From contig PCBK01000199.1 in the NCBI GenBank assembly GCA_002731275.1, positions 1-32,293 on the forward strand: a stretch of 32,293 bases of DNA, given 5' to 3'. Origin of the DNA: Deltaproteobacteria bacterium. GTDB lineage: Bacteria; Myxococcota_C; UBA6777. The translations under genes were made by a program, and so were the position numbers. Under the pieces are notes generated by a model. The model had not been told where the DNA came from and ran no database searches. It saw only the letters and a program-made list of their open reading frames with translations. Below, in pieces: positions 20,528 to 32,293 of the stretch (its first letter is position 1; each line of letters opens with the position of its first letter).

Positions 20528-22129
20528 CTAGAACTTGGTGCCGTCAACCTTGGTGCCTGGAGAAAAGAGAGCACCGTTGGCAGCGGTCACGGTGCTGTGT
20601 TTCACACATGTGCCTGTCAGCTCTGGATCCAATGTCACGGACTGGTCATCACCTGCATTGCAAGCCCCTGTACCGTATGTAAAGCTCGCCAACTCTGTGC
20701 CAGCAGCATTCTTCACACTCACAGTCCCACTTGAGTTTGCGAGACTGACCTTCCCGGAAGAAGCTGTATAGACAAACGCACCTCCAAATTTGCTATGTGC
20801 GTTTCCAGTGTTTGCTTCTGTATCAGTGGACATTCCACCACCAAAGATGACGACTGCGCCTTTTGGAGGTAACTGCAGTGCGCCAAAGTCGTGAATTTTG
20901 CTCGTCTTGCTGTAAAGCTCAAGTCCAGCGAGCTGGAGTGTCTTACTGGAGACGTTCACGATCTCGATAAACTCGTCGTTGTACGTCTCACGCGTTCCGT
21001 CTTTGTTAGCGTCTCCGTTTGTGGTGTCGGGATCGGCGTGAACTTCGTTGATCACAAGATCGCCAGCCGCAGGTGCATTCCCGGTGGGTTGCTCAACGAC
21101 GGGCTCTGGTGCGACCTCTGGAGTCGCTTCGGTCCCACCATCTCCCTGGCTAGCTTCTGTTTGTGTCTCTGTCGAAGGCTCAGGAGTGGGCTCTGGCTTG
21201 GGAGGCTCTTTGGAGAACTCCAAGCCACCGACTCGTGTACCAGGCGAGAACAGTGTCCCCCCAACTGTATCGGCCTTACTGTGAAGAATACAAGTCCCTG
21301 TCATGTCAGGATTGAGCGTAACAGACTCGGACTTTCCGCCTGCACAATCACCTGATCCATACTCAAACTTGCCAAGCTCCGTGTCATCAGCAGCCTTGAG
21401 CACGATGACTTTCCCAGAGTTGGTCAAAGACAGACGGGAGCTCGTGCTGCCGTTTTTGGTGATGTACACCAGTGAGCCACCGAACTTGCTGTGTGCTTTG
21501 CCAGTGCCAACCTCTGTGTCAGCAGCCATCCCGCCACCAAAGACAACGAGTCCTTGTTTTGCCGCGAGGAGGACACCTTCGGGGACGGTAAACAAGACCT
21601 TTCCGCCATCATCTGTGATCTTGACACCGGCGATATAGAGGTCTTTATCAGTGACATTCACGATCTCGATGAATTCGTCTTCATAGGTGTCTCGTGTGCC
21701 GTCTTTGTTGGCGTCCCCTTTGTCGTTACCTGTAGGGGGGCTGTAGAGGATCTCGTTGATCACAAGCTCACCCGCTTGTGGTGCAGGTCCTGGAGGCGGT
21801 TCGTCTTTGACAGTCTCTTTGACTTCATCGACTGGATTGTTGTCATCGACTGGATTGTTGTCGTCGGTGGGGTTTTTGTCGTCAGTGGTGGTCTTGTCAT
21901 CCACTGGTTCTTTTTCGTCTTTGATGGTTGGCTCTTCTCCACCATCATTGATAGCAGCTTCTTTACGAGGTTCACAGACACCCGAAGTTTGGCTGCTCTC
22001 TTTCACACAGTATTGTCCAGCAGGACAGTCCAATGTGGTCTTGCATGAGGGATTGCCACATCCCGTAAAATGAAACGAAAACACAATACCTACAAGGGCG
22101 AGGCCCGAAGCGATCCAGCGAAAAAACAT
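20528..22129 (-). CDS. lipoprotein with two lamin-tail domains
   Basis: 533 residues from ATG at 22129, with GGAGAAGG just upstream. The signal peptide ends FTGC (Cys24). A small Cys knot follows (CKTTLDCPAGQYCV to about 52), then an acidic Asp/Lys/Thr/Pro stalk (about 60-115) with DDNNPVDDNNPVD repeats. Residues about 119-305 and 356-533 are two lamin-tail (LTD) domains, each with LVINE at the start, DANKDGTR and DEFIEIVNV, FGGGM and AHSKFGG. They are joined by a Glu-Pro-Thr linker. The DANKDG part looks like a calcium loop. LTDs are immunoglobulin-like folds found on secreted bacterial proteins, often with nucleases, but no enzyme is attached here. Its stop is 5 bases from the superoxide reductase stop. 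Confidence 0.87.
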   Translation of the reverse strand: MFFRWIASGLALVGIVFSFHFTGCGNPSCKTTLDCPAGQYCVKESSQTSGVCEPRKEAAINDGGEEPTIKDEKEPVDDKTTTDDKNPTDDNNPVDDNNPVDEVKETVKDEPPPGPAPQAGELVINEILYSPPTGNDKGDANKDGTRDTYEDEFIEIVNVTDKDLYIAGVKITDDGGKVLFTVPEGVLLAAKQGLVVFGGGMAADTEVGTGKAHSKFGGSLVYITKNGSTSSRLSLTNSGKVIVLKAADDTELGKFEYGSGDCAGGKSESVTLNPDMTGTCILHSKADTVGGTLFSPGTRVGGLEFSKEPPKPEPTPEPSTETQTEASQGDGGTEATPEVAPEPVVEQPTGNAPAAGDLVINEVHADPDTTNGDANKDGTRETYNDEFIEIVNVSSKTLQLAGLELYSKTSKIHDFGALQLPPKGAVVIFGGGMSTDTEANTGNAHSKFGGAFVYTASSGKVSLANSSGTVSVKNAAGTELASFTYGTGACNAGDDQSVTLDPELTGTCVKHSTVTAANGALFSPGTKVDGTKF

Positions 22130-22814
22130 ACCTTCTCCTATCCCATTCGTTGATGAATTGGACACATACAATAGATAGACGCATCCAACTATAAAAAAAC
22201 CCCCCCGAAAATGCAAGCCGCCCGACAAAAGACCTTTTCCCTTCATGGATCAGCCTTCTAGGTATCTTTGCGGCGTTCTCAAGCGACAAGTTACAGAGAT
22301 GTCACGGGCACTTTGCGGTCTTCATCAGAGGAAACACACACTGTAAGCAAAATGTTGGAAAAAAAGCTGTGTACAGACGACTTCATAACGGATCCACTTC
22401 ACAGAAAGTGCATGGGACAGATTTGAATTCGCTCATGTTCCAGAACCAAAAAGGTTGTCCAATGCCTCTACAGAGATGTCCAGCTCACCAAACATCGAAG
22501 GCGAGCAACATGTCATGAGAACAAAACACAAACTTTTGACACAACAACACACCTGGGGACTGGATTTTTTTGCGTTATATTTCTATGATGTTGACCTGTT
22601 TGATACTTAAGACGACCCAAAAGGGTATGCTACATCATTTCACTCCAAAAAAGGTACAAACACAACCTCTTTGGGATGTGTACGATACTTGTAGCAGCAA
22701 TGTACGTGCGATGTGATGTACATACATTGCCCATGATGAAAGTATTTTGGAGACGTCGGACAAGGTGTTGCGCTCTTACCCACAGAGGCAACACTTATGG
22801 GAGGTTTTTTGAGA
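22130..22814. other. long noncoding divergent region ahead of the IPT/TIG lipoprotein gene
   Basis: About 680 bases between divergent lipoprotein genes, with no credible gene. There is a TTGACA at 22536 without a matching -10, a short ACCC/GGGT hairpin near 22615-22626, and ATGTAC/GTACAT half-sites around 22700-22725. It may hold promoters, a long leader RNA or a small RNA, none of which I can define. Confidence 0.5.
22131..22138 (-). promoter_or_regulatory. ribosome binding site setting the start of the lamin-tail lipoprotein gene
   Basis: GGAGAAGG on the - strand lies one base before the ATG at 22129, with its GGAG core 5 bases away. The upstream ATG at 22246 would place 39 odd residues ahead of a proper lipoprotein signal peptide. 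Confidence 0.5.
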
Positions 22815-25916: not shown

Positions 25917-26813
25917 ATGAAATGTTTTTATAGCGACCACTTCGTCCTCCCACTCCCTCCAAAGCATCACTTCCCGATCCAAAAGTACGCCATGTTGCAT
26001 CGCACTTTGCGCACAGAGCAGATCGTCGAAGAAGCACAGCTCCACCCTCCCCCTCCCGTTCCCTTGCCGTTTTTGCTCGCCGCACACTGTAAAGAGTACG
26101 TCGAACGTGTCCGTTTGGGCCAACTCTCCAAACACGAAGTTCGGCGTATTGGGTTCCCCTGGTCTCCTGCACTTTATGAGCGCTCAATCCGCGTCGCCGG
26201 CGCGACGATTGAAGCGTGCAAGGAGGCTCTGTCTGCGGGGATCTCAGTCAACTTGGCGGGAGGGACACATCATGCTTCTTATGACAGGGGGCAGGGATAT
26301 TGTGTGTTCAACGATAGCGCTGTCGCAGTAAGAGCTCTTCAGGCAGAACACTCCATCAAACGCATCCTGATCCTCGACTGCGATGTCCATCAGGGGAATG
26401 GGACCGCTGAGATCTTTGCAGACGAACCGGATGTCTTCACCTTCTCAATCCACAACCACAAAGCCTTCCCTTTACACAAAGCCGTCAGCGATCTGGATAT
26501 CGATGTTCCCCCCAAAACACAAGATACCGCGTATCTTGCGTTGTTAACGCAAGGTCTCGAAGAGGTCTTCGCTCGTTTCTCCCCTGAGTGTGTGATCTAC
26601 CTCGCAGGTGTCGACCCCTACGAAGATGATCGGCTCGGTGGCCTGTCGTTGACCAAAGCAGGTCTCGCACAAAGAGATCATCTGGTCTTGCGTGCTTGTC
26701 GAGAAAGAGGCCTCCCTGTCGCGATCACAATGTCAGGTGGATATGCCCACCGCATCGAAGACATTGTCGCATTGCACGCACAGACCATCGAGATCGCCAC
26801 AGGGTATATTTGA
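25917..26813 (+). CDS. histone deacetylase family protein, class IV-like
   Basis: 298 residues, full length for bacterial members and predicted cytoplasmic. The arginase-like deacetylase fold motifs are intact: H118-H119 in GGTHHA, the DRGQGYCVFND block, zinc ligands D156 and H158 in LDCDVHQGNG, D233 in AGVDPYEDD, and the transition-state Tyr276 in SGGYAHR. The DRG-x-G and DVHQGNG spelling is the pattern of class IV (HDAC11-like) enzymes. Known members remove acetyl or longer acyl groups from lysine or small amines; the substrate here cannot be read. The N-terminus (LPLPPKHHFPIQKYAML) is conserved and supports this start, although the upstream Shine-Dalgarno is weak. It converges on xerC with a 23-base gap. 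Confidence 0.9.
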   Translation: MKCFYSDHFVLPLPPKHHFPIQKYAMLHRTLRTEQIVEEAQLHPPPPVPLPFLLAAHCKEYVERVRLGQLSKHEVRRIGFPWSPALYERSIRVAGATIEACKEALSAGISVNLAGGTHHASYDRGQGYCVFNDSAVAVRALQAEHSIKRILILDCDVHQGNGTAEIFADEPDVFTFSIHNHKAFPLHKAVSDLDIDVPPKTQDTAYLALLTQGLEEVFARFSPECVIYLAGVDPYEDDRLGGLSLTKAGLAQRDHLVLRACRERGLPVAITMSGGYAHRIEDIVALHAQTIEIATGYI

Positions 26814-26836: not shown

Positions 26837-27970
26837 CTATCCTTCGTCGGGGACTTTTTGGGCGCGGGGGTGGGCTGCGCCATAGGCAGCCATCAAACTC
26901 TTGATGTTGACGTGTGTATAGCGTTGTGTTGTGGAGAGACTTTCGTGACCGAGTAGCTCTTGAATCCCACGCAAATCGGCCCCGGATTCGAGCAGGTGTG
27001 TCGCAAAGGAGTGACGCAGACCGTGGGGACTGATCCGACAGCGAGCCGCCGTCTCAAGCACATATTTATCAACGACACGACGGACACTTCGCGCTGTAAG
27101 CCGACCACCTTTGTAATTTAGGAACAAGGCCTCATGTGCAGCCATTCCTTCGTCAGCCGCGGCGAGCAATTGACCACGAAGATTCATGTAGTGCTTGATC
27201 GCCTCAAGCGCAGGACCACCGATCGGGACGATACGTTCTTTGCGCCGTTTTCCGAAGATCTTGGCGAATCCCCACGGTCTCAAGCTGTCGAGGTCAAGAG
27301 AGACGAGCTCACTGACACGCATCCCTGTCGCATAGAAGAGCTCAAGGATCGCACAATCGCGTGCACCGAGGGCGGTTCGATCGTCGGGAGCATCGAGCAG
27401 TCGCCCGATCTCTTCGATCGTCAAGAAGCGCGGAAGTGCGCGTGGTTGTTTGGGATTATTGATAAAATCGAGGGGGTTTTGTTCGAGCACTTCCTGGCGC
27501 ATCAAGAATCGAAAGAAACTGCGCAACGCGCTGAGCTTTCTGTTGAGCGTACTCGCCTTGTTGTCCTTCTCGTAAAGAACGGCGAGAAAACCACGAAGGT
27601 GTCGACGGTGGACTTGTGTAGGGTCGAGAATCTCCAACGCGACGATATACTCCAAAAAGGCGCGAATATCCCGTTCGTATGCACGCAGCGTGTGCTGAGA
27701 AGATTGTCTCACAAGGCCCATATAATCGAGAAAACGAGCCTTCCAGTGCAGCCATGTCTCTCCAAAATCCGCCTCTGTAATCGGCTTGGCGTCTTTCTCT
27801 TGGAGCGCCTTGACCGTCTTTTTACGCTGCTCTTCGACGGACTCTTTTGGCGCGGGCGCCTTCTTGGACGCTCGCTTTGTGGGAGTCTTTTTGGCCTTCT
27901 TTTTGGTGCTTGCGGCCTTCTTTTTCTTTGGTTTTTTGGTCTCTTTCTCGGACGAAGTTACATCATTCAT
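26837..27970 (-). CDS. xerC: tyrosine recombinase XerC with Lys-rich N-terminal extension
   Basis: 377 residues from ATG at 27970, with GGAG 7 bases upstream; the longer frame to 28015 lacks a site. Residues about 70-160 are the SAM-like core-binding domain, and 180-360 the catalytic domain, with R218 in TGMRVSE, K241, H316-x-x-R319 in HGLRH, H342 and nucleophile Y351. The end, AAYGAAHPRA, matches XerC rather than XerD. XerC/D resolve chromosome dimers at dif during division; an integrase role is less likely because no phage genes are nearby. Unusually, residues 1-60 are a Lys/Ala/Pro/Thr-rich tail resembling histone H1 C-termini, absent from typical XerC proteins of about 300 residues. The tail probably binds DNA. 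Confidence 0.93.
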   Translation of the reverse strand: MNDVTSSEKETKKPKKKKAASTKKKAKKTPTKRASKKAPAPKESVEEQRKKTVKALQEKDAKPITEADFGETWLHWKARFLDYMGLVRQSSQHTLRAYERDIRAFLEYIVALEILDPTQVHRRHLRGFLAVLYEKDNKASTLNRKLSALRSFFRFLMRQEVLEQNPLDFINNPKQPRALPRFLTIEEIGRLLDAPDDRTALGARDCAILELFYATGMRVSELVSLDLDSLRPWGFAKIFGKRRKERIVPIGGPALEAIKHYMNLRGQLLAAADEGMAAHEALFLNYKGGRLTARSVRRVVDKYVLETAARCRISPHGLRHSFATHLLESGADLRGIQELLGHESLSTTQRYTHVNIKSLMAAYGAAHPRAQKVPDEG

Positions 27971-27977
27971 CAACACA

Positions 27978-27981
27978 CTCC
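27978..27981 (-). promoter_or_regulatory. ribosome binding site setting the xerC start
   Basis: GGAG on the - strand lies 7 bases before ATG at 27970. It keeps the Lys-rich tail in the product but excludes 15 residues encoded upstream. Confidence 0.55.
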
Positions 27982-28474
27982 ACTGAACAAACATACAATC
28001 ATCATACACGATCAACGTACCATCTCATGACCTCTCTGCTCAAATTTTGACCACAGCTCTGAAGGCAAAACAAAACTTTCTCGCGATCGTCGTGTTTGAA
28101 AGGGTATCACTCACCTCCTACGCAGAAGCGAAGTAGCGCAGCAACATCAAAATGTTGAACGCTCCAAGAAGTCGATCCGTCAGATATCTGATACGTTCAT
28201 GGGGTGTGCTCGTCATACAAACCCAACAGGTCACCACTTATTTGGAGGGTGAAGGGACAGTAACTCTTTGTTTCCAAAGACAGAGAGTCTATCACAGGGA
28301 AGTGGATCAAAATCATGAAAAGGTGTACATTGGATGTGGCATTTTTCATGCTAGACGGTGTTCAAGATTTGGCACCTTATCACTTTAGAAAGACATGCAC
28401 CGAGAGAGTGCATCGATAGAATCGGCAACTTTTGCCAACATAGAAGAATCGCATATCTTTACATGAATGTCCTC
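27982..28474. other. noncoding divergent region ahead of the CDC/YCC repeat lipoprotein gene
   Basis: About 490 bases between xerC and the large Cys-rich gene. An open frame at 28152-28388 has no Shine-Dalgarno and no recognisable product. No clear promoter pair or strong hairpin is visible. Confidence 0.5.
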
Positions 28475-28486: not shown

Positions 28487-31400
28487 ATGGCTCGTTTACT
28501 CAAACGTCGCTACACCCTGTTCCTCGGGCTAATGCTCACATTGGGCTTGCTCGTTGGGATCACAGGAGGTTGTGATTGTGGTGGTTCACCAGGAACCGAA
28601 ACAATCACCGAAACAAACACGGAGAACCCAACAACAGACGGAGGTGAGGTCGTCGCAGAGAAGGACGGGACCTGTACCCAGCGCTGTGACTGCCCACAAG
28701 GACAAGAATGTCGGGACAGCAAATGTGTGATCCTTGATGCACCAGTCTATTGCTGCGATCGCGATCAATGTCCCATTGGTAAGGCTTGCTTAAACGCCGA
28801 TGGTAGCAACGGCTCATGTGATGTACGGACACCCTGTAAACACAACTGTGAGTGTTCACAAGGACTCGCCTGTGAAAAAGGCTACTGTACCAAGACCAGT
28901 AAGATTGTTTACTGTTGTGAACAATCAGGTTGCCCAGCGGGCGAACAGTGCGAGTCGATCCGTGGAGGCACCAAGACCTGTGGTAGCGAAGGCTCCCCTT
29001 GTGTCTCTGCGTGTGGTTGTGTCGCAGGTCTTGCTTGTGTCAACGGTCAATGTACAAAGAGCAGCACAACTGTTTACTGTTGTGATAACACCAACTGCCC
29101 AGAAGGACAGGTCTGTGAGACAGCCAAAGGCGAACGTGGTGTTTGCGGAAAGATCAAAAAATGTAACTCAGCGTGTGATTGTCCCACAGGCCAAGCATGC
29201 TCAAACGGACGATGTGTCGTCTCTCCTGTTCCCGTCTACTGTTGTGATAAGCCCAACTCTTGCCCCTCCGGCCAAGCTTGTGACACAGCAGATGGTCGAC
29301 GCCAAACCTGCCCCACTCAAACCGAATGTACCCAACATTGTGACTGTGCCCAAGGCCAATTCTGCAACAAAGGAGCCTGTGTCGTCGGCACATCCCCTGT
29401 CTATTGTTGTGACAAAGCAGGGTGCCCAGTTCGCCGCTCCTGCTTTACCAAAAACGGTGGCGTCGGAACATGCCCAGACAAGAAGTGCGTCAAAGACACA
29501 GACTGTGGTGCGCCCTCCTGTCGTCAACAAGGGACACAATGTACAACCGCCGTCCCACGCTGCCTTGATGATGGTTCATGCTCCAACGAAGTGAGCAGCA
29601 GCGCAGGTAGCTGTGATCCAGCAACAGGCAAATGTACAACCACAGCACAATGTAAAGTCGACTGTGATTGTCCCCAAGGTCAGGCGTGCTCAAACGGTGC
29701 TTGTGGCATCGCAAATATCGTAAAGTACTGCTGTGACAAAGAAGGTTGTCCAAAAGGACAAGCCTGCAGCCGAACAGACGGAAGCGCAGGTGTTTGTGGT
29801 GGCACAACAGGATGTAGATCCAACGCAGAGTGTGGAAAGACTTCGTGCCAGCAACTTGGAACGGACTGTGCGCTGAACACCCCAACATGTGACGTTGCCA
29901 CAGGAAAATGTGTACCTGGCGCACAACTCGTACGAAACGCTGATTGTAAAACACAAAACGGTCAACTCACCTGTGTTCCACGTACAGGCGTCGTTTGTAA
30001 GACTCACTGTGACTGTCCACAAGGACAAGGCTGCTCTAGTGGCCAGTGTATCGGAGGCACCTTCCCCACATATTGCTGTGACAAAGCCGGATGCCCAACC
30101 AAACAAGCTTGCTACAACAAAGATGGTACTCCTGGTATCTGCCCAGGTGTCGGTGGATGTAAAACGGACCAAGATTGTGGCAAAGCTTCCTGCCGACAAA
30201 GCGGGACGACGTGTGTTGTGACAAAACCAACCTGCGACACGACAACAGGAACATGTCGAAGCTCATCAGCCGCCTCTCCAGGCGTATGTGACCCCAACAC
30301 TGGTTCATGCACACCACTCACTCCATGTCAGGTCCATTGTGATTGTCCCCAAGGACAGGCTTGCGCGACAACGCCCTTCGGCATCAGAGTTTGCCAACAA
30401 GTCTCCACACCAGTCTACTGCTGTGATAAAGCTGGATGTCCTTCCAGCACAGCGTGTTTTGATAAAAACAACGCAAGAGGGACATGCCCCATCACATGTA
30501 CCTCTCCATGTGATTGTAATACAGGCGAAGATTGTGTGAGTGGGCGTTGTACCGTGACTCCAAATCCTGCGTATTGCTGTGACGATCCACAGAAATGTCC
30601 TGCAGGTGCTGTCTGTAAAGACAAGTCGGGCAAAGCCGGTACATGCCCACAAACACAACGTCCCTGCAAGAATGTTTGTGATTGTGTCCAAGGCGAAGCC
30701 TGCACCAACAACGTCTGTGTCAAGACGAGTAACCCAACAGTCTTCTGTTGTGAGCAGCCCTCTTGTCCGGCAGGAAAAGCCTGTGTCAACAGTCTCAATC
30801 AACAAGGAACATGCCCCGTTCCCTGTAAAAATGATTGTAGCTGTACACAAGGTCAACGTTGTGTGAATGGTACTTGTACAAGCAGCTCCGGTAACGGTTA
30901 TTGCTGCACTAAATCGGGATGTCCCGCCAACTTCAGCTGTACCAACCCCGATGGCAGCCGCAACCGATGTCCGACGCAAAAATGTAACTCCGCCTGTGAT
31001 TGTAACCAGGGAGAAGACTGCCGAAATGGCCAATGTACAAGGGTGTTCCCTGCTGTGTACTGTTGTAGCAAGACAGGATGCCCACAAGGTCAGTCTTGTA
31101 AAAATGCACAAAACACATGGGGAACGTGTCCAAATGTCAACACGTGTAGCTCTCCATGTGATTGTCCACAAGGGCAAGACTGCTTCAAAGGCCAATGTAT
31201 CCAGGTCTTCCCATCGATCTACTGCTGCTCCAAAGTAGGCTGCCAACCTGGACAGGCTTGCTATGACAGCAACAACAAAGCCGGAGTTTGCCCCGGTTCA
31301 CAATGTACAACATCATGTGATTGTCCCAACCAAGGTCAGTCATGTGTGCGTGGTCGTTGTGCTTCTTCTAATCCGCGAATCTATTGCTGTAGCAAACCCG

Positions 31401-31957
31401 GATGTCAATCAGGCCAAAGCTGCGAAGATACAAACGGCAACCTGAGTGTTTGCCCTGGCGCACAATGTAAAACGGCTTGTGATTGTAATCAGGGTGAAGA
31501 TTGTCGAAATGGTCAGTGTGTCAGAAGTTCACCTGCGGTGTATTGCTGTAGTAAAACGGCATGCCGCGCAGGACAAGCTTGTGTCAACACAAACGGAACC
31601 TCCGGCACCTGCCCTGTACAATGCAAAGTGGATTGTGATTGCCCACAAGGAAATCGTTGTTCAGCAGGTACCTGCTACCCAACTACGACAGCGTACTGTT
31701 GTAGTAAAGCGGGATGTCCGACAGGCCGAACTTGTACGACAACTACAGGACAACGTAGTGTCTGTGGTGGAAGCACCGGACAAAGCTGTAAGGTCCGTTG
31801 TGATTGTAACCAAGGTGAAGAGTGTGTGAATGGTCGATGTCAACAAGGACCAAGCCCTGTTTACTGTTGTAGCAAGGCCGGATGTCCTTCGAACTTCGTC
31901 TGTCAGGATTCAACTGGACGCACCAGCTTCTGTCCCACGACTCCCCCAGCTCCATAA
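28487..31957 (+). CDS. giant Cys-rich lipoprotein made of 17 CDC/YCC modules
   Basis: 1156 residues. The signal peptide ends TGGC (Cys29). After a short Glu/Thr linker, from about residue 58 to the C-terminus the protein is 17 tandem modules of 48-55 residues, each with about ten cysteines in the order C-x3-CDC-x-QG-x2-C-x2-G-x-C, then YCC-x-K-x-GCP-x-G-x2-C, then a GxC end. After modules 5, 6 and 7 lie three inserted segments of a second type (C-x4-DCG-x2-SC-x2-GT-x-C...CD-x2-TG-x-C). The early modules mostly read YCCD, while modules 12-17 read YCCS. There is no anchor other than the lipid. If all cysteines pair, it would be a stiff, protease-resistant rod. No known domain name fits the whole module. 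Its function is unknown; a surface structure or metal binding is possible. Confidence 0.85.
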   Translation: MARLLKRRYTLFLGLMLTLGLLVGITGGCDCGGSPGTETITETNTENPTTDGGEVVAEKDGTCTQRCDCPQGQECRDSKCVILDAPVYCCDRDQCPIGKACLNADGSNGSCDVRTPCKHNCECSQGLACEKGYCTKTSKIVYCCEQSGCPAGEQCESIRGGTKTCGSEGSPCVSACGCVAGLACVNGQCTKSSTTVYCCDNTNCPEGQVCETAKGERGVCGKIKKCNSACDCPTGQACSNGRCVVSPVPVYCCDKPNSCPSGQACDTADGRRQTCPTQTECTQHCDCAQGQFCNKGACVVGTSPVYCCDKAGCPVRRSCFTKNGGVGTCPDKKCVKDTDCGAPSCRQQGTQCTTAVPRCLDDGSCSNEVSSSAGSCDPATGKCTTTAQCKVDCDCPQGQACSNGACGIANIVKYCCDKEGCPKGQACSRTDGSAGVCGGTTGCRSNAECGKTSCQQLGTDCALNTPTCDVATGKCVPGAQLVRNADCKTQNGQLTCVPRTGVVCKTHCDCPQGQGCSSGQCIGGTFPTYCCDKAGCPTKQACYNKDGTPGICPGVGGCKTDQDCGKASCRQSGTTCVVTKPTCDTTTGTCRSSSAASPGVCDPNTGSCTPLTPCQVHCDCPQGQACATTPFGIRVCQQVSTPVYCCDKAGCPSSTACFDKNNARGTCPITCTSPCDCNTGEDCVSGRCTVTPNPAYCCDDPQKCPAGAVCKDKSGKAGTCPQTQRPCKNVCDCVQGEACTNNVCVKTSNPTVFCCEQPSCPAGKACVNSLNQQGTCPVPCKNDCSCTQGQRCVNGTCTSSSGNGYCCTKSGCPANFSCTNPDGSRNRCPTQKCNSACDCNQGEDCRNGQCTRVFPAVYCCSKTGCPQGQSCKNAQNTWGTCPNVNTCSSPCDCPQGQDCFKGQCIQVFPSIYCCSKVGCQPGQACYDSNNKAGVCPGSQCTTSCDCPNQGQSCVRGRCASSNPRIYCCSKPGCQSGQSCEDTNGNLSVCPGAQCKTACDCNQGEDCRNGQCVRSSPAVYCCSKTACRAGQACVNTNGTSGTCPVQCKVDCDCPQGNRCSAGTCYPTTTAYCCSKAGCPTGRTCTTTTGQRSVCGGSTGQSCKVRCDCNQGEECVNGRCQQGPSPVYCCSKAGCPSNFVCQDSTGRTSFCPTTPPAP

Positions 31958-31977
31958 GAACCCTTATTTGCTTCATG

Positions 31978-32017
31978 CACTTTGCAACCCCCCCTTCAAC
32001 AAACCTCTCCATCCCCC
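31978..32017 (+). repeat. 40-base direct repeat, copy 1
   Basis: Matches 32254-32293 at 38 of 40 positions. It begins CACTTTGCAACC and ends CTCTCCATCCCCC. The copies are 276 bases apart. Confidence 0.85.
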
Positions 32018-32031
32018 TGAGCCTTCGGCTC

Positions 32032-32072
32032 TTCCCCCTTCCTCTCCATCCTCTGGAGAATGGAAGGGGGAG
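32032..32072. terminator. long hairpin after the CDC/YCC gene
   Basis: The outer stem has 11 pairs (TTCCCCCTTCC with GGAAGGGGGAG, one G-T pair). The inner stem is 6 pairs (TCTCCA/TGGAGA) with a 5-base loop, and there is a 2-base bulge on the 3' side. It lies 75 bases after the stop codon. Only a short TTTT follows, so it may terminate transcription or be part of a repeated intergenic element. Confidence 0.5.
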
Positions 32073-32185
32073 ACATTTTGCCGATAAGTACGGTATTTCG
32101 CTTGAGTTCTGCTCCAGGCGCAGTTGCACTTGTGTCTTCGCAAAATGCACCCGAATGTACGACACAATCCCTCATGATCATACGT

Positions 32186-32201
32186 ATGTCGCAAGCGACA
32201 T
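32186..32201. repeat. 16-base palindrome in the right-end noncoding region
   Basis: ATGTCGC and GCGACAT flank a 2-base AA centre. It could be a protein-binding site. The loop is too small for a stable RNA hairpin. Confidence 0.4.
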
Positions 32202-32253
32202 CCTCCTAATGCTCGACTGCTCGGACAACATATGCGGTTGTCATTTGCGACGC

Positions 32254-32293
32254 CACTTTGCAACCACCCCTTCTACAAACCTCTCCATCCCCC
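32254..32293 (+). repeat. 40-base direct repeat, copy 2, cut by the window edge
   Basis: Matches 31978-32017 at 38 of 40 positions and is still matching at the last base, so the repeat probably continues outside the window. Confidence 0.85.

Follow-up and report, generated by a model that had tools for sequence, protein, structure and literature searches.

A probable myxococcotal lipoprotein of 17 tandem ten-cysteine modules as a candidate disulfide-stiffened rod

What might a bacterium build from a lipoprotein that consists almost wholly of cysteine-rich repeats? The question is raised by an open reading frame at 28487-31957 on the forward strand of contig PCBK01000199.1 of a Deltaproteobacteria bacterium. 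The window, by which we mean the whole stretch of DNA that was analysed (32,293 nucleotides), is the whole contig, and the genome, a metagenome assembly of Myxococcota type, has 10.75 Mb. The ATG start and the stop codon of the frame are both correct, and the encoded protein has 1,156 residues and 196 cysteines, with cysteine making up 17.4% of the mature chain.

An earlier note on this DNA had read the protein as 17 tandem modules with CDC and YCC landmarks, ten cysteines each and little else. Using a strict cysteine pattern, C-x3-CDC-x5-C-x4-C-x7-YCC-x4-C-x5-C-x9-C, we recovered exactly 17 modules of 48-54 residues with exactly ten cysteines apiece, just as the note had counted. The modules do make up nearly the whole protein; overlooked were a 34-residue linker near the N-terminus and three inserts, each 59-66 residues long and containing eight cysteines, located between modules 5/6, 6/7 and 7/8. 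Elsewhere the modules are joined by linkers of 3-7 residues that mostly begin with proline. All 196 cysteines are assigned in this way, because 17 x 10 in modules, 3 x 8 in spacers, C29 of the lipobox and C31 give 170 + 24 + 2. The DNA of the modules is 51-69% identical (mean 58%), and no tandem DNA repeat was found over the gene region with Tandem Repeats Finder; the repeat exists at the protein level only. The features are listed in Table 1.

Table 1 Features of the lipoprotein gene and its divergent neighbour (positions in the window)
Feature	Residues	Position	Strand	Basis or remark
Signal peptide MARLLKRRYTLFLGLMLTLGLLVGITGG	1-28	28487..28570	+	Sequence: basic N-terminus followed by a hydrophobic core; Cys at 29
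Putative lipid-attachment Cys29, C31 and 34-residue acidic T/E/G-rich linker	29-62	28571..28672	+	Sequence
Modules 1-5, 10 Cys each	63-329	28673..29473	+	Profile matches, E about 1e-14 to 1e-17
Spacer 1, 8 Cys	330-388	29474..29650	+	No family match for spacers of this type
Module 6		29651..29797	+	Cysteine pattern
Spacer 2, 8 Cys	438-503	29798..29995	+	Cysteine pattern
Module 7		29996..30142	+	Cysteine pattern
Spacer 3, 8 Cys	553-613	30143..30325	+	Cysteine pattern
Modules 8-17, direct tandem, linkers of 3-7 residues	614-1149	30326..31933	+	Cysteine pattern; TIGR04201 match 31613-31675 within
Tail PTTPPAP and stop		31934..31957	+	No C-terminal sorting tag
Tyrosine recombinase gene, Xer-like, divergent		26837..28015	-	Pfam Phage_integrase

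Orthologs of the protein were found in all four further genomes of the family, with 15-17 modules each (one ortholog is split across two contigs), and paralogs, mostly with 10-12 recognised modules, lie alongside in the same genomes, which also carry MYXO-CTERM proteins. Across 124 modules from the five genomes the cysteine columns show no or almost no variation, with one column kept in 123 of 124. Since all ten columns hold in essentially all of these modules, the ten-cysteine module is not a chance pattern. The D of CDC, G10, G16, the Y before CC and a P or G after C33 are conserved as well, and the loops between the cysteines vary widely from module to module within this fixed frame. When orthologs from other genera were compared, 15 of the 17 window modules were most similar to the module at the corresponding position in G001, and likewise 15 of 17 in G003. 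The two closest orthologs differ with dN 0.019 and dS 0.22 (dN/dS 0.083), with no cysteine gained or lost. Judged from these comparisons, the array is old, stable and under purifying selection, because its cysteines are conserved, its dN/dS is low and most modules match their positional counterparts. Each of the seven distinct orthologs and paralogs that are complete has an even number of module cysteines (194, 210, 210, 182, 152, 152 and 126; a near-identical eighth protein also has 126), where the counts omit the lipid cysteine and, where present, its C-x-C neighbour. Genes 51-66% identical to the neighbouring recombinase stand beside the orthologs in 4/4 relatives, an adjacency that looks like plain synteny. 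The Xer-like gene was considered as a functional partner and rejected, since despite its conservation it looks like a housekeeping recombinase.

Each module consists of two halves of similar plan. Half 1 reads C1-x3-C5-D-C7-x5-C13-x4-C18; apart from an extra cysteine at position 5, this is the Myxo_Cys_RPT repeat C-x5-C-x5-C-x4-C. The TIGR04201 model of this repeat has 22 positions and a curated cut-off of 25 bits; in a scan of the genome the start of module 16 reached 26.3 bits, while the other half-1 copies stayed below the threshold and a scan of the whole protein gave seven stretches and 19.6 bits, under the cut-off. By its spacing and this match we assign half 1, and half 1 only, to Myxo_Cys_RPT (TIGR04201), which agrees with the impression in the earlier note that the first half resembles CxxDxDC knots. 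Half 2, C27-C28-x4-C33-x5-C39-x9-C49, is arranged in the same way except that its last loop is longer, and it carries an extra cysteine beside the first. Four pieces of half 2 and three spacers gave no TIGR04201 match even at E 10, and no recognised family was found for either in the libraries scanned.

Pfam returned nothing for the whole protein even at E 1, probably through composition correction, and scans were therefore carried out module by module on a set of 28 modules. The closest candidate was the uncharacterised DUF7107 (PF23416), which weakly matches 18 of the 28 and spans nine of the ten cysteines (best E 0.00032); two modules of the window score 19.3 and 11.2 bits against it and one from another genome scores 17.1 bits, all short of the cut-off of 24.6, and a literature search on it gave no paper. 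No library family spans the whole module above its cut-off, so the statement that the module matches no nameable family exactly still stands. A profile search that placed it wholly inside a characterised family had been named as a refutation of the note; no such placement of the module was obtained, and only half 1 falls inside TIGR04201. A half-2 profile searched against solved structures gave KASH2 (E 0.013) and the Dumpy DPY module (1oig, E 0.07). A weak profile match to the CREMP structure 9pgb (E 0.48) was also obtained, and Pfam Dumpy_DPY touches 5 of the 28 modules (best E 0.0091). We treat the KASH2, DPY and CREMP matches as leads to a possible fold, not as proof of common descent. Matches to a Nab2 zinc finger and to CART were rejected as short look-alikes in cysteine spacing. 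A tandem disulfide-knot lipoprotein of Myxococcota is of a kind already known. As far as the libraries and literature searched extend, neither the ten-cysteine double unit nor its amplification to 17 copies has been described.

AlphaFold2 (AF2) models were obtained for one module (40 sequences; pLDDT 89.3, pTM 0.58) and for four modules in a row (15 sequences; mean pLDDT 85, pTM 0.43). Both place two beta-hairpins in each module, at positions 11-14/17-20 and 38-40/46-48. As the pTM of the four-module model is only 0.43, the geometry between modules and the straightness of the chain are not fixed by it. Half 1 of module 15 (model residues 159-185) overlays weakly on the inhibitor cystine knot (ICK) toxin VSTx (1.3 A over 27 residues, Z 2.0), and overlays on squash inhibitor knottins are also weak (0.6-0.9 A over 19-21 columns, E about 9-10). 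The single-module model had no match in the PDB, which is no proof of a new fold; Foldseek rows for nsp3/4 and dextransucrase were set aside as being without support. In ICK-type folds the corresponding cysteines pair 1-3 and 2-4. Because the VSTx and squash counterparts pair in this order, C1-C13 and C7-C18 would be the pairs of half 1. For half 2, the proposed pairs are C27 (or 28)-C39 and C33-C49; all pairings within the module are predictions.

A fifth disulfide, C5 with C28 (or 27), would then staple the two halves together. Among 57 cysteine-rich frames from the loci analysed, many of them related by descent, CC comes after a half 1 with the extra cysteine in 140 of 151 cases, but after a half 1 that lacks it in only 7 of 1,704. 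Five exceptions belong to the same family and have the two cysteines split as CxxC or CxC; the six others, from other Myxococcota, have the extra cysteine and no CC. The staple is proposed because the two extra cysteines almost always occur together. Since the repeats share descent, this co-occurrence is an association and not an independent test, and its Fisher p-value was set aside for that reason; it holds in several lineages. It suggests a disulfide staple between the halves through the two extra cysteines.

The wider occurrence of the module was then examined by profile search. In a domain-wide spread of 386 genomes at E <= 1e-5, matches fell in the protein's own family only, and a profile from the orthologous block likewise recovered only metagenome-assembled genomes (MAGs) of that family. 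Within the phylum of genome G032, which we take for Myxococcota because TIGR04201 and MYXO-CTERM occur in it, 75 of 195 genomes match at E <= 1e-3, many of them partially. Full matches over 49 positions occur in two settings: as a single module mid-way in long Myxo_Cys_RPT lipoproteins that start with CGRT (L042-L046), and as five tandem modules in a lipoprotein of genome G453 (L047). The genome of the window itself encodes a protein (L006) of about ten modules that have CPDC or CTC where CC would stand, a small lipoprotein (L004) with one spacer and one module. A plasmid search gave no match.

Where would such a protein reside? Its lipobox, T-G-G-C, is weak and atypical, with T-G-G at -3 to -1 (T at -3) against the canonical L-A/S-G/A. 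The cysteine at this site is kept in the orthologs and paralogs (paralog motifs include A-V-G-C and L-G-G-C), and C-x-C at the mature N-terminus is found in nearly all relatives with such an end, paralog L026 having a single cysteine. We consider the protein to be probably an exported lipoprotein, with a predicted N-terminal lipid anchor joined to the array by the flexible acidic linker, and its location is presumably the cell surface. A model scan found no MYXO-CTERM in the protein, yet MYXO-CTERM proteins exist in the genome, and neither a head domain nor a partner gene is evident. The disulfide-generating VKOR is present in 5/5 genomes and no DsbB was found in the same five; the cysteines would probably be oxidised in the periplasm.

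Taken together, the best explanation is a lipoprotein rod that is rigid, resists proteases, contains about 97 disulfides and serves as a structural surface spacer or fibre, and on balance we lean towards it. The mature part would be a linear array of 17 double-knot modules and three spacer knots, each module comprising two beta-hairpin mini-domains of the cystine-stabilised beta-sheet or disulfide-directed beta-hairpin kind. The disulfides would make the rod stiff and resistant to protease and denaturation, and the lipid and linker would tether it to act as a spacer, fibre or coat element. As the scans showed neither a head nor an enzyme nor a sorting tag, the function must lie in the array. 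Of the three roles offered by the earlier note (rigid surface fibre, metal sink, phase-variable coat), the fibre is the best supported, its structural role being drawn by analogy with the proposed TraA stalk, the CREMP fibres and Dumpy. A more specific version, which we put forward tentatively and would not rate as an even chance, is that the ten-cysteine unit is a distinct, undescribed stapled double hairpin, in which two Myxo_Cys_RPT-type knots each gained a cysteine, were locked covalently and then multiplied in this lineage, giving one lipoprotein with a continuous rod of about 97 disulfides, comparable to the animal fibres CREMP and Dumpy.

The Myxo_Cys_RPT region of TraA of Myxococcus xanthus was proposed by its authors as a rigid stalk (PMC3325183). 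The window protein shares with it the repeat of half 1 and an exported, cysteine-rich, tandem design in Myxococcota; it differs in that every double unit carries two additional cysteines (C5 and one of those in YCC), the two types of half strictly alternate, and the predicted anchor is an N-terminal lipid, without PA14 head or MYXO-CTERM. A TraA-type receptor was rejected, the protein having no Pfam family, no PA14 and no MYXO-CTERM. CREMP of the avian eggshell membrane and SP75 of the slime-mould spore coat form structural disulfide-rich fibres from long tandem arrays of C-x4-C-x5-C-x8-C (PMC3068167). Half 2 (C-x4-C-x5-C-x9-C) is spaced almost identically and fits the broader form C-x4-C-x5-C-x6-10-C of such repeats, although the homology is not significant, these proteins are eukaryotic and they lack a double unit with a fifth disulfide; moreover, the repeats of CREMP are nearly identical to one another, whereas the window modules are not. 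In KASH2 (Kartesh 2), a disulfide-directed beta-hairpin of a sea star, I-III/II-IV pairing was proven by directed synthesis, and its authors suggested a convergent origin of the fold (PMC11891777). Half 2 resembles it over the CPAGQxC-DG stretch and in the x5 spacing between II and III, but KASH2 is a single free peptide of 27-28 residues and not a tandem array. Drosophila Dumpy, an extracellular protein of giant size, is also composed of small disulfide modules in alternation (EGF-DPY-EGF); there, DPY alternates with EGF, and the protein has a transmembrane anchor and a ZP domain (PMC2930355).

The main rival to the rod is multivalent loop binding, in which the knots would be scaffolds and their variable loops would bind a ligand (glycan, protease or matrix polymer) in the way of knottins or EGF/EB arrays. 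The knottin-like hints in the fold, the loops that vary so widely on a fixed cysteine frame, and the positions that keep their own sequence across genera, as expected if their tasks differ, all suit it; however, the family scans found no known binding domain or motif, and positional conservation also follows from descent and purifying selection. We regard a binding array as rather unlikely.

Less probable again is a cysteine-rich lipoprotein held in the periplasm, at the inner or outer membrane, which would act as a redox buffer or envelope bridge instead of a surface fibre. In E. coli, Asp at +2 is an inner-membrane retention signal for lipoproteins, and the mature +2 residue of the window protein is Asp. 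Among the relatives this residue is D, G, Q or R, and with such variation it probably does not govern sorting here. A knot array of 1,100 residues, if extended, could also exceed the width of the periplasm.

A metal sink, with reduced cysteines binding soft metals as in a secreted metallothionein, seems very improbable. A 17% cysteine content, C-x-C and C-C pairs, and two modules that touch Pfam Metallothio_6 at E 0.11 would be in line with it, but the protein is predicted to be exported in genomes that all encode VKOR, cysteine parity is even in seven proteins, the frame is of the Myxo_Cys_RPT or disulfide-directed beta-hairpin (DDH) type with conserved Gly, Pro, Tyr and Asp, and the AF2 hairpins have good local confidence. 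Least credible of all is a phase-variable or recombining coat protein with a changing repeat number, as could be imagined from tandem modules that number 15 to 17 in orthologs and 11-12 in paralogs beside a tyrosine recombinase gene, because the module DNAs are too diverged, with no tandem DNA repeat, to give slippage a substrate, and the positional match across genera, the low dN/dS and the resemblance of the recombinase to a housekeeping Xer gene all disfavour it.

If the preferred reading of a rigid rod is right, this bacterium would build a long, covalently stiffened rod from mini-folds that are used in animal toxins and matrix fibres. It would also define a new ten-cysteine domain, present in several families of Myxococcota and often located within repeat lipoproteins that have no annotation. 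The array may further serve as a tandem scaffold of natural origin, and as a substrate that makes high demands on the VKOR-type disulfide machinery of these bacteria.

The eight-cysteine spacer is a separate repeat family in its own right, for which a search of the family libraries returned no match. Candidate TIGR04201 (Myxo_Cys_RPT) repeats, the type to which the first half of the ten-cysteine module belongs, are extremely abundant in the genome of the window and its four relatives, each of which has between 500 and 2,029 such candidates at first look.

Within the window's own genome, the paralog on contig C152 has about 10 modules in which CPDC, CPSC, CQFC or CTC replaces CC, followed by a cysteine-rich tail of a different type. 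In a protein of 854 aa on contig C163, the spacer-type repeat (CSMSGTTCVQSNPSCSSGGSC...) forms a long array, and two ten-cysteine modules are present as well.

The VKOR of all five genomes is located in frames 440-605 aa long, which suggests fusion of VKOR to another domain. In the window's own genome, VKOR and the 12-module paralog share one contig, ~13 kb apart.

Downstream of the array gene, the intergenic contig end carries an imperfect ~37-base word (TTTGCAACC.CCCCTTC.ACAAACCTCTCCATCCCCC) twice, and this repetition is probably why the assembly stopped there.

Coordinates of additional features
Feature	Position	Strand
Lamin-tail-domain protein	window 20528-22246	-
Histone-deacetylase-family protein	window 25917-26813	+
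Intergenic contig end	window 31958-32293	
VKOR (example)	G000:C13:23280-23672	

In Myxococcota family f223, the lipoproteins L042-L046 and L049 have CGRT at the start and dozens of Myxo_Cys_RPT repeats, and every one of them has one or two ten-cysteine modules embedded. Within these repeat arrays, the module looks as if it were the marker of a joint.
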